Origin: a virus
DNA length: 21,728 nucleotides
Virus record (IMG/VR): IMGVR_UViG_3300007516_000179
Location: 1-21,728 of that record
Reading direction: 5' to 3' (one strand)
Part shown: piece by piece, positions 6,803-20,980 of the stretch
Layout of the letters: the number at the start of each line of letters is the position of its first letter
Position numbering within the stretch: position 1 is the first letter of the stretch
The notes under the pieces: model-generated
Told to the model about the DNA's origin: nothing
What the model saw: only the letters and a program-made list of their open reading frames with translations
The model's database searches: none
Made by a program: the position numbers and the translations under genes

Positions 6803-7115
6803 AGTTTTCTCCGATCTGTTCGTTCAGTTTGCGCACCATCACGGCCTCGATCTCGGGCAGCAGTTCAGCGGCGATCAGGGTGTCGATGCCCAGCGCGGCA
6901 GCGAGGGAGAGGGCAGCCCCCATATCCCATCCCAAAATTGCGCCGGGGATCACGCGCAGCTGGCCACCAAGGCGGCCGACCAGATCCCAGACCTGCCAAC
7001 CGTCCTGCGTTTGTGGCCTGTTCAGTCTGGCCGGGCAGTCCGGGCACGGCCCCGCGCAGGCGGCGCAATACCGGTCGCCCCCGCCGAAGGACCAGTCGGC
7101 GAGGGCGCGGAGACG
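6795..7115 (-). CDS. T-like extension of the tail chaperone, made by -1 frameshift (G-T fusion)
   Basis: The -1 frame relative to the G-like gene is open from the slippery site to TGA 6797-6795: 106 residues beginning RLRALADWSFGGGDRYC. It is clearly coding, with QDGWQVWDLVGRLGGQLRVI followed by PGAILGWDMGAAL and a helical C-terminus EAVMVRKLNEQIGENYG. The only upstream in-frame stop (TGA in CTT TGA AGC) lies 5' of the slippery site. No credible ATG/GTG with a ribosome site opens the frame before its middle, so it should be made as a fusion to residues 1-115 of the G-like protein (221 aa). Near its start it has C-x2-C-x3-C-x2-C (YCAACAGPCPDCP), possibly zinc-binding. In lambda, G-T recruits tube subunits to the tape-measure protein. 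Confidence 0.85.
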   Translation of the reverse strand, partial: RLRALADWSFGGGDRYCAACAGPCPDCPARLNRPQTQDGWQVWDLVGRLGGQLRVIPGAILGWDMGAALSLAAALGIDTLIAAELLPEIEAVMVRKLNEQIGENYG

Positions 7116-7459
7116 TTTTTTTCCGCGTCCAGGATGAGGCCGCGCGCGATATATTGGGTCTGGAAGGCTTCAAAGACCGGCCAAATTTCCAGTAACGCGT
7201 CGATGCCTTTGGGCGTGACAGGCACAATTGTGCCCATGGCATCTCCGACCCCCTCCCAATCCAGCACAGCACGGCGGGCGACAGCTTTCGCCATGGCGAG
7301 GGCCAGTTCCTCTTGGCTTGCGCCCTCGGGCATAGCCTCGATTGCTGGATCGGCGCGCGCCGAAACCATCAATGCGGTGGTCAGCGGGGCGACGAGCAGG
7401 CGCAGGTCAGGGGCCAACTCCAGCCATTCGGGGCTGGCGGTCAGGTTCAGACGGATCAT
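7022..7459 (-). CDS. Tail assembly chaperone (lambda G-like)
   Basis: A 145-residue protein starting MIRLNLTASPEWLELAPDLR. ATG 7459 lies 2 nt after the tube gene stop; an open extension to 7501 only overlaps the tube gene and was rejected. The body is mostly helical (AIEAMPEGASQEELALAMAK, then LDWEGVGDAM, then DALLEIWPVFEAFQTQYIAR). From residue 116 the zero frame becomes low-complexity Ser/Pro/Ala/Arg (SAPSPTGPSAGATGIAPPAR), as expected if the important product is the frameshifted one. Length and position between tube and tape measure match lambda gpG (140 aa). Its role would be to keep the tape measure unaggregated during tail assembly. Confidence 0.85.
   Translation of the reverse strand: MIRLNLTASPEWLELAPDLRLLVAPLTTALMVSARADPAIEAMPEGASQEELALAMAKAVARRAVLDWEGVGDAMGTIVPVTPKGIDALLEIWPVFEAFQTQYIARGLILDAEKNVSAPSPTGPSAGATGIAPPARGRARTARPD
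7076..7121 (-). promoter_or_regulatory. Programmed -1 ribosomal frameshift signal
   Basis: Read on the minus strand, codons GAA AAA AAC contain the heptamer A AAA AAC (7121-7115) in the correct X XXY YYZ phase for the G-like gene. A 7-nt spacer follows (7114-7108), then a hairpin with a 12-bp stem: arms 7107-7096 and 7087-7076, one T-G wobble, 8-nt loop 7095-7088. The G-T product lies in the -1 frame. Heptamer, spacer and stem are seen directly; function is inferred from lambda and other siphophages. Confidence 0.85.
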
Positions 7460-7461
7460 GT

Positions 7462-8400
7462 TCAATAACTCACAATGCTGTTGATGAGGACGGCGGTGCA
7501 CATACGCGCAGGGCTGGTGGCTTTGGCGGCCTGCCAGTTAAAACTGGCCTGCACCCCTTGGGGCCCTGCAATTTCAATCCGGGGGCGGGGCAGATAGACG
7601 GCATGGGCAGTGAAGGTGAAGCTGGCATTGGCCCCGAGGCTGTAGTTGAATTCCAACTCGCAGGGGCTGCCGTCGATGGCTTGGGTGACCAGCGTTGTGT
7701 CGGAAAACCGCACCTCTATCCGACCCGTCAGGGCCGCCATGGTCGGGTCGGCCCCGTCGATACGACCGTCGCCACGGATGGTCTCAATGCGGTCGAGGTT
7801 GTTGGAATAGGTGATTTCGGCCGAGACCACGTTGCCCAGCGCCGTGCCGTTGCGTTTTACGGTGCCATTGAAATGGCCGAAACGCTGGAGACCCAGCGCG
7901 GTTGGCGTGCCAGTGGAAGTCGTGGCGGCGATGGTCTCACCCTGCGCTACCAAACGCGCAGTTGCCGTCAGCAGGCCAGAGCGCTGCATTTGCCATGACA
8001 GCTGGTCCAGCACGCAGCCGGAATACATCGCAAAGCGAGGCACCTCGGGCATTGCGGTTTCAATCGATAGGCTGGGCAGAGTCCAGTTGCCCGACTGGAA
8101 GGTATGAGTCTTGGGCGTGGTGCCGCTGGTGACGGGCTGACCGAATGCCGCCTTCAGCCAGAAGCCGAACGCCTCGACATCGATGGGGATCACCACTTCG
8201 CCGTCGGCGGTTACCGCATCCTTGATCGGTGCCAGCGGATCGCGGCCATAGCCCAGCAGTTCGGACTCCAGCAGGGGTTGTTCTGACCCCAGAGTTGCCC
8301 GTGCAAAGGGCATCAATCGGAACCCACTCACCGGCGGGGTCCCGTAAACCGTCTCATACGCAAGCGCCATCTGCGCCCGCGCGCCTTGCGCACGTGCCAT
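7462..8400 (-). CDS. Phage tail tube protein (lambda V position)
   Basis: A 312-residue major tail protein. ATG 8400 is supported by AAGGAG six bases upstream and the expected N-terminus MARAQGARAQMALAYETVYG; the longer open frame to 8544 lies inside the preceding gene. It resembles the Phage_tube_2-type tail tube family rather than the shorter TP901-1-type tail protein of GTAs. Features include LLESELLGYGRDPLAPIKDA, VTADGEVVIPIDVEAFGFWL and a beta-rich C-terminal half (EITYSNNLDRIETIRGDGRI, ELEFNYSLGANASFTFTAHA). It would polymerise around the tape measure to form the tail tube. The next gene starts 2 nt after its stop. Confidence 0.87.
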   Translation of the reverse strand: MARAQGARAQMALAYETVYGTPPVSGFRLMPFARATLGSEQPLLESELLGYGRDPLAPIKDAVTADGEVVIPIDVEAFGFWLKAAFGQPVTSGTTPKTHTFQSGNWTLPSLSIETAMPEVPRFAMYSGCVLDQLSWQMQRSGLLTATARLVAQGETIAATTSTGTPTALGLQRFGHFNGTVKRNGTALGNVVSAEITYSNNLDRIETIRGDGRIDGADPTMAALTGRIEVRFSDTTLVTQAIDGSPCELEFNYSLGANASFTFTAHAVYLPRPRIEIAGPQGVQASFNWQAAKATSPARMCTAVLINSIVSY

Positions 8401-8426: not shown

Positions 8427-8849
8427 TCAGGCCAGGGGGCCGGGGGTGGTGTAGTAGAGCACGACGGTGATCACCGCCGCTTTCAGCGCCGCCGCGCCCT
8501 CGATGGGGAGATCGACCGTGGCCGGGGCTTCGGGTTCGACCCAATCGCAGAGGCCGCCAAGGGTGCGGTCGGCTTCCAGCGCGGTGCCGATGGCGGTGAT
8601 CAGGGTGTCAAAGGCGCTGGTCCGGCCATTCGGGGCCTGGACGACGACCTCCAGTTCGGCGCGGTGCTGGTAGTGATAGCGAAGGGGCGACAGGGTGACT
8701 TCCGGCTCGCCGGGCTGGCCATCGCGCAGGATGATCAGCCCCGCCGCTGGGATCCGTTCGGGCAGCACCTCGTCACGCAGGACAAGGGCGGCAAGCGGCT
8801 GCAGCCGCGCGTGAAGCGCGGTAAGGGTAATTTCGCGGGTGGTGGGCAT
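8427..8849 (-). CDS. Probable tail terminator / minor tail protein (lambda U position)
   Basis: 140 residues: MPTTREITLTALHARLQPLA, then LRYHYQHRAELEVVVQAPNG and a C-terminus VITVVLYYTTPGPLA. Length, alternating strand/helix pattern and position directly before the tail tube fit a tail terminator, the ring that caps the tube. No diagnostic motif is visible, so the call rests mainly on order. The start is ATG 8849 with only a weak GAGA upstream. It is the first late gene after the inserted plus-strand gene, so it may need its own promoter or read-through from the head genes. Confidence 0.7.
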   Translation of the reverse strand: MPTTREITLTALHARLQPLAALVLRDEVLPERIPAAGLIILRDGQPGEPEVTLSPLRYHYQHRAELEVVVQAPNGRTSAFDTLITAIGTALEADRTLGGLCDWVEPEAPATVDLPIEGAAALKAAVITVVLYYTTPGPLA

Positions 8850-9016
8850 TTATTCTCAATCTCATGTATTTGCGACTCAAAGGGCACAATCAAACTTGCG
8901 CATGGTTGGACCTTGTCGAGGGTCGCCAACTGGCGTTTGTTACTTTTGCGACGTACTCAGTGAACCTGCGTGCGCTCTAAGCAAAAATTTGAGGCAATTG
9001 GGGTTGAGAGCTGAAC
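8850..9016. other. Divergent intergenic region between U-like gene and moron gene
   Basis: 167 nt, visibly more AT-rich than the late genes. It must hold the start signals of the plus-strand gene at 9017 and possibly a promoter for the tail genes to the left. A 12-bp near-centre palindrome, CGCCA-AC-TGGCG at 8924-8935, could be an operator. On the minus strand TTGATT and AATACA are spaced 17 nt before the U-like gene, a poor match to sigma-70 promoters. No convincing promoter can be assigned. Confidence 0.35.
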
Positions 9017-10165
9017 ATGAAGTCCATTTTGCGTTTTTCGATTGCGGCAATTATGATTTGGGTCGGCCCTGCCTATGCTGGCTTCGACGAGCCGATGTCA
9101 TTCTATCGCGCGACCAGTGGTGGTAACTGCTCAAGCTGCGTCTGGATCGCCGCTGAGGGGGTCATCGAGGGTGACAGTGACAAGAAGTTCCTACGTTTCT
9201 TGGATGATGAAGGTTTGCTTGGGGCCAAGGGGCTGAATGTGCATTTTCATTCTCCTGGCGGGATCCTGATCGGGGGAGTCATGCTTGGTCTTGCCATCCG
9301 GGTGCAGGAGGCAAACACTGTTGTTTCAGGGGCCCGCATTGAAGATGTCTATGCGGATGGATTGCGCAAAGTTACTTTCGACCCACCTATTGCTGCCGAA
9401 TGCAGTTCTGCCTGCGTCTTTGCATTTGCTGGTGGCGTGAGCCGGTTTGCGTCAAAGACCACTCCAGGTGCGGCAGTCGGTTTTCAGGATATCGGACGTC
9501 TTGGAGTTCATCAGTTCTACACGCCGGAAACCCTTGGTGACCCGACTGCACTTGCCTTCGATGCCCAAGACCGCATTGACGATCAGAGGATTATTGCCCT
9601 CTTGCTCGCATATCTTTCGAAAATGAACGTTTCAGCAGAGCTCCTACAAATCGCGGCTGTTACAGATCCGCGGGACATGCACTATCTTACAGAAGACGAA
9701 CTACAGCGGACCGAAATCGATAACAGGATGGTCCACAGTGTATTCCTGACCGGTTATCGAAACGGCGTCGCAATTACAGAGATTACATACAAGCGCTCAG
9801 ATGCCGATTACCGCCTAGAAGTTTACTGCGACGGCGGTGAGGCCCGCATGCTTGCTTCAATTGACTGGCGGGGGTTCTACGACGTTGAGGGTCATCAAAG
9901 GTGGAAGCTGTTCGATGGCGTGTCCATGTCGGGTGGTGGGGCCGTCGAGCTGATTGATGAAGATTTTTCCGTCCGATCCGATGGTGGTGTGACAGGTCAA
10001 CTTCGCTTCCGGTTTTCTGATCCGATTGCTGCAGTCGTATCGCGCAAAGACTTTCGTTTTGAGGACTGGTCCAGCCGCTATGCGAATGATTCAGCGACGT
10101 CCATGAGCTTCACCCTTCCTGCCGATTTCGACGGCCTTTACCTGTTGCCACGGGCCTGCCTCTGA
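9017..10165 (+). CDS. Secreted ClpP/SppA-like protein (COG3904 type), probable prophage moron
   Basis: 382 residues with a clear signal peptide: KSILRF, hydrophobic core to about residue 18, cleavage probably after AYA (21). The first half has the ClpP-like serine peptidase fold of the COG3904 'predicted periplasmic protein' group: NVHFHSPGG (74-82), AECSSACVFAFAGG with probable nucleophile Ser131, GVHQFY with probable catalytic His165, and LLLAYLSKMNVSAELLQIAA followed by DPRDMHYLTEDEL. Residues about 240-382 form a separate, probably beta-rich, domain of unknown role ending PRACL. It is on the opposite strand from the late operon, inserted between Z-like and U-like genes, with lower GC than its neighbours. 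That suggests cargo expressed independently, perhaps in the lysogen. ATG 9017 follows GAGAG. Activity and substrate are unknown. Confidence 0.8.
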   Translation: MKSILRFSIAAIMIWVGPAYAGFDEPMSFYRATSGGNCSSCVWIAAEGVIEGDSDKKFLRFLDDEGLLGAKGLNVHFHSPGGILIGGVMLGLAIRVQEANTVVSGARIEDVYADGLRKVTFDPPIAAECSSACVFAFAGGVSRFASKTTPGAAVGFQDIGRLGVHQFYTPETLGDPTALAFDAQDRIDDQRIIALLLAYLSKMNVSAELLQIAAVTDPRDMHYLTEDELQRTEIDNRMVHSVFLTGYRNGVAITEITYKRSDADYRLEVYCDGGEARMLASIDWRGFYDVEGHQRWKLFDGVSMSGGGAVELIDEDFSVRSDGGVTGQLRFRFSDPIAAVVSRKDFRFEDWSSRYANDSATSMSFTLPADFDGLYLLPRACL

Positions 10166-10194
10166 TACCCTAAGGGGATGCTAAGAGGCAACAG
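10142..10194. terminator. Stem-loop between convergent genes, possible bidirectional terminator
   Basis: Two competing hairpins share the same region. CTGTTGCC (10142-10149) pairs perfectly with GGCAACAG (10187-10194). Alternatively TGCCTC (10157-10162) pairs with GAGGCA (10185-10190), with an inner AT-A-CCC/GGG-G-AT stem. It spans the stop of the plus-strand gene and lies just before the end of the minus-strand Z-like gene. There is no U-tract, so rho-independent termination is uncertain. Confidence 0.4.
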
Positions 10195-10207
10195 ATGGCG
10201 CGGTTGG

Positions 10208-10837
10208 TCAACGGATGACGCCATACCATTTTGCCACGATCAGCCCCGGCACACCACCCACTGCTCGTTCCGCATCCCGCGCCAGATCGAGCCGTTTGCG
10301 CAGCTTGACCTGCGGCACCAGCAGGAAGATCGGCACGGTTGCCAAACCGCGTCCGGTTTTCGACTTCGATGCCACGGCCCGGCCTTTCGAATTCAGCCTT
10401 CCCTCGGCCACCAGCAGGCTCGGCCCCCGACGGCGATAGATGAACCGCAGACGCAACCCCGTGCGACGTTCCCATTCGCCGGGGGTGATGCGGCCGCCCT
10501 TGGTGCTTTTCCCGGCGGCGGGCGTGGGGATCGCGAGCCAGAACCCATTCTTGGACCGGATCAAAGGCCCTGTGTCATGCGCGCCGATGATGACCGGGGC
10601 GTTGGACCAGACCAGCGCCGCCGCGTTCAGGCTATCGCCGGATTTTGGGAAGCTGGCGAGGCGGATGCTGTTGCCAAGCCGGGTGCCCAGCCCAGCGCCG
10701 GTGATCTGGCTGCGCCACGCGGATTTGAGACCGGTGCCAGCTTCGCGCATGGCCGCTGAGACTGCTTTTTCCCCAGCGGCAATTTCGACCTGCATCAGGG
10801 CGGCAATGTCCGGATCGAACGCGATCCTGAGCCTCAT
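10208..10837 (-). CDS. DUF6441 family minor tail protein (lambda Z position)
   Basis: 209 residues: MRLRIAFDPDIAALMQVEIA, then GEKAVSAAMREAGTGLKSAW and a basic second half (RTGLRLRFIYRRRG, FLLVPQVKLRKRLDLARDAE). This resembles the DUF6441 proteins found in alphaproteobacterial prophages between the head-tail joiner and the tail terminator. The lambda counterpart by position is gpZ, which completes the tail end that binds the head. ATG 10837 overlaps the upstream TGA as ATGA. It is the last gene of the right-hand late block before the oppositely oriented moron gene. Confidence 0.8.
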   Translation of the reverse strand: MRLRIAFDPDIAALMQVEIAAGEKAVSAAMREAGTGLKSAWRSQITGAGLGTRLGNSIRLASFPKSGDSLNAAALVWSNAPVIIGAHDTGPLIRSKNGFWLAIPTPAAGKSTKGGRITPGEWERRTGLRLRFIYRRRGPSLLVAEGRLNSKGRAVASKSKTGRGLATVPIFLLVPQVKLRKRLDLARDAERAVGGVPGLIVAKWYGVIR

Positions 10838-19671: not shown

Positions 19672-20220
19672 ATGACGAAACTGACTGAAACCCAGACCAT
19701 CATCCTCAGCGCCGGGGCCCAGCGCCACGACAAGATCGCCTTGCCTCTCCCAAAGGGGCTGGCCGGAGCTGCGGCGAAAATGGCCGTCACGAAGATGATC
19801 GAACACGGCTGGCTGCAGGAGGTCGACGCCAACCTGCGGCGCAACGAGCCGCTTTGGCGCGAAACCGGCGATGGGCATGGCACTACGCTGGTGGTGACCG
19901 ACGCGGGGTTGCTGGCAATCGGCATTGAACCCGTCGTGGCCGAGGCGGCGGTCTTAATGAGCGAACACGCCGCCGAGATGCCTGCGCCCGCAGAGCCTGC
20001 TGCCGTTCAGCGTAAGCTGCGCGCCGGGACCAAACAGACAATGCTGATCGAGATGCTGCAGCGCCCGGAAGGTGCTACGATCAGTGAGATCGTAGCTGCG
20101 ACGAATTGGCAGCCTCACTCAACGAGGGGCGCAATTTCCGGCGTCCTGAAGAAGAAGCTGGGGTTCGCGATCTTTTTGGAGAAGATTGAGGGCAGGGGTT
20201 CAGTTTATCGGATCAACTGA
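19672..20220 (+). CDS. DUF3489 domain protein
   Basis: 182 residues. The N-terminal part (MTKLTETQTIILSAGAQRHD, ALPLPKGLAGAAAKMAVTKM, TLVVTDAGLLAIGIEP) is the usual lead-in of DUF3489 proteins. The C-terminal DUF3489 domain is clear: GTKQTMLIEMLQRPEGATIS, EIVAATNWQPHSTRGAISGV, LKKKLGFAIFLEKIEGRGSV. It reads as a winged-helix-like DNA-binding fold, so a regulatory role is plausible but unproven. It is the last gene of cassette B, starting 9 nt after the preceding stop, and converges on the GIY-YIG gene. Confidence 0.88.
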   Translation: MTKLTETQTIILSAGAQRHDKIALPLPKGLAGAAAKMAVTKMIEHGWLQEVDANLRRNEPLWRETGDGHGTTLVVTDAGLLAIGIEPVVAEAAVLMSEHAAEMPAPAEPAAVQRKLRAGTKQTMLIEMLQRPEGATISEIVAATNWQPHSTRGAISGVLKKKLGFAIFLEKIEGRGSVYRIN

Positions 20221-20305
20221 AGTCGCTACAAGTTCGAAGTTGCCCCTTGGCTTAGCGATTTCATTCACTCCTGCCTGTTATTCATGGGTATGATAAACTG
20301 AGGCA

Positions 20306-20914
20306 TCAAGGTTTCGCAAAACTCACCAATTGGGAGTGTTGCCATTTCGACTTATCATCAATCTTGGCAACGCGCATTCGAAAGGCTTGCCAAACACGGG
20401 TAATTTCGTAACGGAATAGTTCCCTTGCAATCTGGTCACGACCATCTTTTTTATAGCTCCGTTCAGTTGAGAGATCTACCAGCTGTTTTTGGATGTCGAA
20501 TTCAATTTGGCCCATGGATGCTGTTTTGCACCAAGCGATTATCTGCCAGTCCCCTGTTCCCCCATATGCGTGAAAATTGAGGTTGCGTTGCCGCTGCTCG
20601 GGATCCACGCAACACCCCACTTTCAGGAGCTTCTCTGCTTTCGACGCTGCTATATAAACGTAGCCTGGATCAGCGTAGCGCCGGGCATAGGCAATCCTTG
20701 CCGTGTCGCACTGTATGCAATGCCCGGCTCGGGAGCGCAGACGATGCCCCTGATAACAAGGTTCAGAAAGGCCAAACATGAAACCTTCTCGCTTGGCATC
20801 ATCACCCCATGCAGTTGCTGCTCGTCCTCTGGCATCATAGACATGTGAGACCAGAATTTTTTGTGACGCAAGGAAGACATATTCTGCATCAGTAATGTCT
20901 GCCCTAGTTACCAT
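20306..20914 (-). CDS. GIY-YIG family nuclease-like protein (T5orf172/MUG113 type)
   Basis: 202 residues. A GIY-YIG-type core is visible: PGYVYIAASKAEKLLKVGCC (the GIY and KVG strands, 83-102), VDPEQRQRNLN with the conserved Arg near 108-110, and later acidic positions in GQIEFDIQKQL (Glu138) and RELFRYE. Upstream, CYQGHRLRSRAGHCIQCDTA (C53, H57, C66, C69) may be a small zinc-binding element. This arrangement is known in phage and defence-associated nucleases, but the biological role here is unknown. ATG 20914 has AGGGAG nearby. Composition is clearly more AT-rich than the late genes, suggesting separate acquisition. It converges with the DUF3489 gene. Confidence 0.75.
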   Translation of the reverse strand: MVTRADITDAEYVFLASQKILVSHVYDARGRAATAWGDDAKREGFMFGLSEPCYQGHRLRSRAGHCIQCDTARIAYARRYADPGYVYIAASKAEKLLKVGCCVDPEQRQRNLNFHAYGGTGDWQIIAWCKTASMGQIEFDIQKQLVDLSTERSYKKDGRDQIARELFRYEITRVWQAFRMRVAKIDDKSKWQHSQLVSFAKP

Positions 20915-20939
20915 ATTGATCTCCCTCTTTGAATGAGTA

Positions 20940-20968
20940 ATGTTTCATTTAGATTAGGACATGGTCAA
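20940..20968 (-). promoter_or_regulatory. Weak candidate promoter for the GIY-YIG gene
   Basis: On the minus strand TTGACC (20968-20963, five of six consensus bases) is followed after 17 nt by AAACAT (20945-20940, three of six), about 25 nt before ATG 20914, in an AT-rich gap. The -10 match is poor. Confidence 0.28.
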
Positions 20969-20980
20969 GCTGAATATGGT

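Follow-up and report, generated by a model that had tools for sequence, protein, structure and literature searches.

Here, we describe a cargo hotspot located between the head-tail joining and tail terminator genes of Rhodobacterales phages and a family of secreted ClpP-like proteins that is a recurrent cargo of this site; both appear to be new forms of known phage features. The gene in question, P0001, which occupies the junction in the window (the whole stretch of DNA analysed, a virus record of 21,728 bases), is almost certainly a cargo gene, or moron. Judging from its sequence and from structure modelling, it encodes a predicted exported serine hydrolase of the ClpP fold, probably active, extended by a C-terminal part that carries no assignment.

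A cargo hotspot between two conserved late genes

The late genes around P0001 all lie on the minus strand, in the order terminase, portal, S49 protease, decoration, capsid E, Phage_attach, DUF6441, P0001, tail terminator, tail tube and tape measure (the terminase, portal, decoration and tape measure genes were named from sequence and gene order, without a library match). As noted in the initial annotation, P0001 is a plus-strand open reading frame set among these minus-strand genes; the coordinates are given in Table 1. The flanking genes had been called Z-like and U-like, and the second name stands by virtue of a PHROG tail terminator match, whereas the first rests on position, the gene, which directly follows the Phage_attach gene, being a member of DUF6441; they are referred to below as Z and U. 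The lower GC content claimed for P0001 is real, at 53.4% vs 65.1% in Z, 69.3% in U and 62.5% in the window. Around the gene, no match to a sigma-70 promoter and no clear terminator were found, with a weak hairpin alone following the stop codon. Transposition of the gene was considered and rejected, its flanks being devoid of notable direct or inverted repeats. An IMG/VR contig, L002, is identical to the window across 4,204 bases.

Table 1. Features of the P0001 gene and of the interval that contains it (window positions)
Feature	Position	Strand	Description and basis
Cargo (moron) gene P0001	9017-10165	+	382-aa predicted exported ClpP-like protein; ORF, family alignments, ClpP profile and structure matches
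Predicted signal peptide	9017-9082	+	residues 1-22, cleavage between AYA and GF; sequence reading, simple heuristic
ClpP-fold domain	9140-9724	+	~residues 42-236; profile and structure matches to ClpP
Cys129-Ser-Ser131-Ala-Cys133	9401-9415	+	Ser131, putative nucleophile, between two invariant Cys; alignments
His165	9509-9511	+	putative catalytic base, invariant; alignments
Asp220	9674-9676	+	possible third catalytic residue, non-invariant in family; by-eye match to Asp of ClpP RDxF
C-terminal region	9734-10162	+	residues 240-382, no assignment; low model confidence, no family match
Variable cargo interval	8850-10207	.	Z stop to U start, 1358 nt, 52.8% GC; junction measurements
Left conserved flank	10208-10837	-	DUF6441, lambda gpZ position; Pfam E 9e-44
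Right conserved flank	8427-8849	-	tail terminator (gpU-like); PHROG 4204 E 2e-42

Relatives of the Z-position and terminator genes are abundant in IMG/VR, and the Z-position gene has relatives in the genomes of diverse Rhodobacterales, including Rhodobacter, Tabrizicola, Paracoccus, Yoonia, Roseovarius and others. In all 159 distinct loci assembled from Rhodobacterales prophages and viral contigs, Z and U are separated by a gap, which ranges from 334 to 4262 nt with a median of 1180 nt; loci in which U lies more than ~5-6 kb from Z fell outside the view, so that the upper end of this range is cut off. By comparison, median gaps at eight other late-gene junctions are between -28 and 222 nt, and gaps longer than 300 nt are found there in 0-15% of the loci. 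Homology of Z stops near codon 204, about five codons before its stop codon, and restarts at the start codon of U, with nothing conserved between the two genes and no promoter or attachment sequence shared at the ends of the interval. The GC content of the interval (0.550) is below that of the flanks (0.678), and this holds in each of the 159 loci (p 8e-28). Gaps above 300 nt, up to a maximum of 1360 nt, also occur in 10-15% of relatives at the junction between U and the tail tube gene, at the one preceding the tape measure gene and at others, which are possibly minor cargo sites.

The contents of the Z-U interval turn over rapidly. Cargo open reading frames, chosen by length and codon-position GC (a choice by which some of the short ones will be spurious), form 138 clusters, including 101 singletons, and a cargo family is held in common by 6 of 99 pairs of loci with 90-92% identity in Z. 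Loci L016 and L002 come from one metagenome (3300027983), yet the cargo of L016 differs. P0001 itself is present in 1 of the 159 distinct junctions and a homologue in one more (L193), the rest holding other cargo. In 98 cases, the largest open reading frame of the junction lies on the strand opposite to that of the late genes, and in 60 it shares their strand (n=158, p 0.003). The opposite polarity of P0001, previously invoked in favour of a moron, is thus the commoner arrangement at this site but not a universal one, the L193 homologue being encoded on the late-gene strand, and makes a weak argument.

No empty junction was found among the 159 close relatives. When 197 genomes from the order to which genome G003 belongs were searched for DUF6441, more distant relatives came to light, and three of these (L311, L330 and L331) have an uninterrupted Z-U junction, the check that had been named beforehand, with only a few bases between the Z stop codon and the start of U. 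The identities of their Z and U are 77% and 70% in L311, ~52% and 61% in L330, and 45% and 54% in L331; thus, close relatives are always filled, and more distant ones can be empty. Together, the occurrence of P0001 in a single junction out of 159, the different cargo elsewhere and the empty site in distant relatives lend strong support to the interpretation of the gene as a moron.

Known defence systems are prominent among the cargo. Strong PADLOC matches of the cargo representatives include DRT9 (2.5e-162), a PvuRts1I-type methyl-directed restriction enzyme (3e-96), the prokaryotic viperin pVip (1.6e-84), PD-Lambda-2_B (1e-35), PDC-M72B (4e-32), PD-T4-3 (4e-25) and mad2 (3e-23), along with a NERD protein, and the Pfam domains detected comprise ParE, ParD, YhaV, PrlF, HipA, PIN, AbiV, Abi_C, HNH and others. 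Much of the cargo is non-defence or of no known function, including methyltransferases, transporters, a globin, a polysaccharide lyase and transposase remnants. Signal-peptide-like starts are present in two clusters among the larger ones, which have eight members each. In L082, a gene of the Z-U interval (7034-7888) encodes a radical SAM protein whose CxxxCxxC motif is viperin-like; the pVip match belongs to the cargo group that contains this protein, without the matching member being singled out.

A predicted exported protein of the ClpP fold

The N-terminus of P0001 reads MKSILRFSIAAIMIWVGPAYA followed by GF and is a typical signal peptide with AYA at its end. Signal-like N-termini are also apparent, by eye, in the relatives aligned from viral contigs, and both features support the export to the periplasm that had been predicted for this protein. 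In searches with the single sequence, P0001 showed no family match in Pfam or NCBIfam, chance-level scores only against PHROGs, and nothing in the PDB, in genomes or in GenBank phages, the one hit in IMG/VR being an identical fragment; PADLOC, run with P0001 and five homologues, returned 0 families up to E 0.1. A family profile compared with the PDB matched ClpP (E 3e-4), whose catalytic Ser and His coincide with Ser131 and His165 in the alignment, and the NfeD-type protease 1510-N (0.003-0.005). An AlphaFold2 model, computed from P0001 and 19 relatives from viral contigs, has a core with block-mean pLDDT near or above 90 (residues 41-100 and 191-230), and Foldseek comparison of this core with the PDB retrieved ClpP (E 5e-5), the matches being restricted to the ClpP core.

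Ser131 and His165, the ClpP-like motifs recognized in the initial annotation, are confirmed by their invariance in two alignments, one with 9 plasmid relatives and the other with 19 viral-contig relatives, as well as by their correspondence to the ClpP catalytic residues. The alignment with the plasmid relatives keeps SxGG, CxSAC, GG, R and GxH, with Gly163 present in P0001 and with Cys129 and Cys133 invariant too, and in the alignment of the window protein with those from viral contigs, all 20 members have Ser131, His165 and the CxSAC motif. Asp220, within the sequence PRDM, falls by eye at the position of the third catalytic residue of ClpP, but varies within the family. The C-terminal ~140 residues, with pLDDT <50 and without a usable model, are as unassigned as had been stated. 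It is the combination of the signal peptide, the ClpP matches and the conserved Ser/His pair that points to an exported and probably catalytically competent serine hydrolase.

P0001 has in common with ClpP (S14), NfeD 1510-N and SppA the fold and the SPGG and Ser/His motifs, but differs from them in its predicted export, in the CxSAC motif, where the Ser is flanked by two invariant Cys, in the extra C-terminal region and in the lack of a Pfam Clp_protease match; unlike for ClpP, no unfoldase partner would be expected for it in the periplasm. Assignment to ClpP proper, the cytosolic S14 enzyme that acts with ClpX/A, therefore fails on both the missing CLP_protease match and the signal peptide. 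A head maturation protease, which would be cytosolic and encoded in the head module beside the portal gene, was rejected as well, this role being filled by the S49 protease of the same phage (12668-13981).

Distribution of the family and a second variable site

The ten-sequence family profile proved too diverse for a locus search, and family members in viral contigs were found by a combination of pattern and profile searches. At the Z-U junction of L193 (Brevirhabdus sp. LH_M10), a 393-aa member, 28.7% identical to P0001, ends ~10 nt before U, and in L276 a member adjoins U in the same orientation as P0001, opposite to the late genes, and runs off the contig. In the phylogenetic tree, the window, L193 and L276 copies occupy separate places, and their union in a single clade is rejected (p 1.3e-4; the branches are long), which excludes one capture followed by divergence for all three, whereas the window and L193 copies as one clade are not rejected (p 0.09). 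Thus, the tree indicates at least two captures of the family at the same site.

The window contains a second low-GC site (47.8%; 20221-20980), flanked on one side by a DUF3489-like gene (19672-20220) and on the other by a DNA-methyltransferase-like gene (from 20981), both named from reading the sequence, and it is occupied here by a T5orf172 gene (20306-20914, minus strand). Among 70 relatives, this site is filled in 59, always with low GC, and empty in 11. In L300, it holds a P0001-family protein (7029-8135), upstream of the terminase, which is 64% identical to the L276 protein; L300 and L276 thus carry like cargo at two different sites of related phages. That the family recurs at the Z-U junction, on either strand, and also occupies another variable site characterizes P0001, on the sequence evidence, as a swappable, presumably periplasmic, ClpP-like cargo gene.

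Beyond these sites, the viral contig L246 (5893-7011 and 9196-10368) carries a family gene that is separated by ~2 kb from a type-I-restriction-like gene and has a repressor-like gene in its vicinity, both named by eye; other viral-contig matches, possibly host flanks of over-extended prophage calls, were not counted. With tblastn, relatives were detected in 43 plasmid records, those listed being 25-38% identical and nearly all annotated as "hypothetical protein", and chromosomal homologues are present in 9 of 16 Rhodobacterales genomes. Some of the plasmid homologues are located beside metal-efflux genes; the neighbours of the plasmid and chromosomal homologues gave no hint of function. The genome of Antarctobacter heliothermus (G012; L250, L259-L269) has 17 family matches, against none or one in the 15 other genomes, and two of its members, with the length of P0001, are arranged in tandem. 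In size, signal peptide and motifs, P0001 resembles uncharacterised secreted ClpP-like proteins of proteobacteria, which we take to be COG3904 ("predicted periplasmic protein"), at only ~25-36% identity. The nearest homologues by identity are those of Antarctobacter, Polaromonas and prophage L246.

Possible function and relation to known systems

We propose that the P0001 gene is a cassette in the Z/tail-terminator hotspot of a large lambda-like phage group of Rhodobacterales, which would be expressed from the prophage and exported to the periplasm of the lysogen. There, the protein may cleave or occupy a protein required by incoming phages, such as an entry factor, or one of their own, such as an injection protein, so that competing phages are excluded. 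We give an even chance to this explanation as a whole, namely, that a hotspot moron encoding an exported ClpP-fold hydrolase is expressed by the prophage and gives the lysogen protection at its envelope. An anti-phage effect, considered alone, appears possible, with a chance somewhat below even. Given that the junction also holds known anti-phage defence genes, P0001 is a good candidate for host protection; an envelope-level role, e.g., superinfection exclusion, seems likeliest, and the defence genes at the same site together with the predicted location and fold of the protein make this role, or the envelope modification also named in the initial annotation, plausible. For the family at large, lysogenic expression is not assured, the L193 homologue lying on the late-gene strand. 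That secreted CxSAC ClpP-like proteins constitute a new class of envelope defence, carried by prophages and based on a protease, which entered the head-tail hotspot at least twice and a second one as well and acts on phage entry from the periplasm, is a speculative generalization that we deem rather unlikely.

The main rival explanation casts P0001 as a moron for general host fitness or envelope maintenance, in the form of a periplasmic hydrolase that, like SppA or NfeD, takes part in the housekeeping of peptides or stress-damaged proteins and has no action on phages. Such a role would fit the prevalence of homologues on Rhodobacterales chromosomes (9/16 genomes) and large plasmids, in some cases next to metal-efflux genes, and the presence at the hotspot of non-defence genes, such as those for a globin, a methyltransferase and transporters. 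However, defence and toxin-antitoxin genes abound at the hotspot, and the fact that the family recurs at two cargo sites of phages suggests that it is of use to them, so that we view this explanation as doubtful. Catalysis might also be dispensable for protection, with P0001 acting in the periplasm as a binding protein of the ClpP fold and obstructing receptors or injection; the third catalytic residue varies across the family and the C-terminal region is big enough for a binding module, but the complete conservation of Ser131, His165 and CxSAC in the 20 aligned members renders such a pseudo-enzyme improbable.

A late-expressed protein that aids the phage itself, in lysis or particle release or as a virion-associated protease, would be consistent with the location of the gene inside the late block and, in the case of L193, with the co-orientation of the homologue with the late genes and its end close to U, and in that phage a late role is conceivable. 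For P0001, we consider such a role unlikely because this gene and its L276 counterpart run opposite to the late genes, the protein has a signal peptide and the family is absent from almost all relatives; moreover, the phage already encodes the S49 head maturation protease.

Prophage defence hotspots and phage morons are already known (PMC9122126, PMC10884400). Like the prophage anti-phage hotspots of the type described by Rousset in 2022 (PMC9122126), the Z-U junction is a small, high-turnover locus enclosed by two conserved phage genes and populated by many defence genes, known systems among them, as well as genes of unknown function. In contrast to those hotspots, it belongs to another phage group with other hosts, is situated at the head-tail junction rather than beside cos and lacks an empty copy among the 159 close relatives. 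Morons such as Tab of Pseudomonas phage JBD26, an 83-residue protein that is encoded between the terminase genes and blocks virion assembly (PMC10884400), and HK97 gp15, cited in the same source, are extra genes within or close to the late region and can guard the lysogen against other phages, and the P0001 gene is placed alike. Unlike Tab, P0001 is predicted to be exported and to adopt the ClpP fold, and its gene lies on the strand opposite to the late genes. Among open-access publications, a search of titles and abstracts yielded no paper on the Z-U junction or DUF6441 phages, and no open-access paper was found that ties ClpP-like proteins to morons.

One specific candidate for an anti-phage or lysogen-fitness role is the secreted ClpP-like family, because of its repeated entry into phage cargo sites and because Ser131 offers a clean mutational control. 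More generally, one precise and easily found junction in a very common group of Rhodobacterales phages holds well over 100 cargo families, several of which are known defence systems and many of which have no known function, and so provides a ready list for the discovery of anti-phage or lysogen-fitness genes. The Z-U intervals of L008-L245, in which many clusters are without an assigned function, make up the candidate list for new anti-phage genes.
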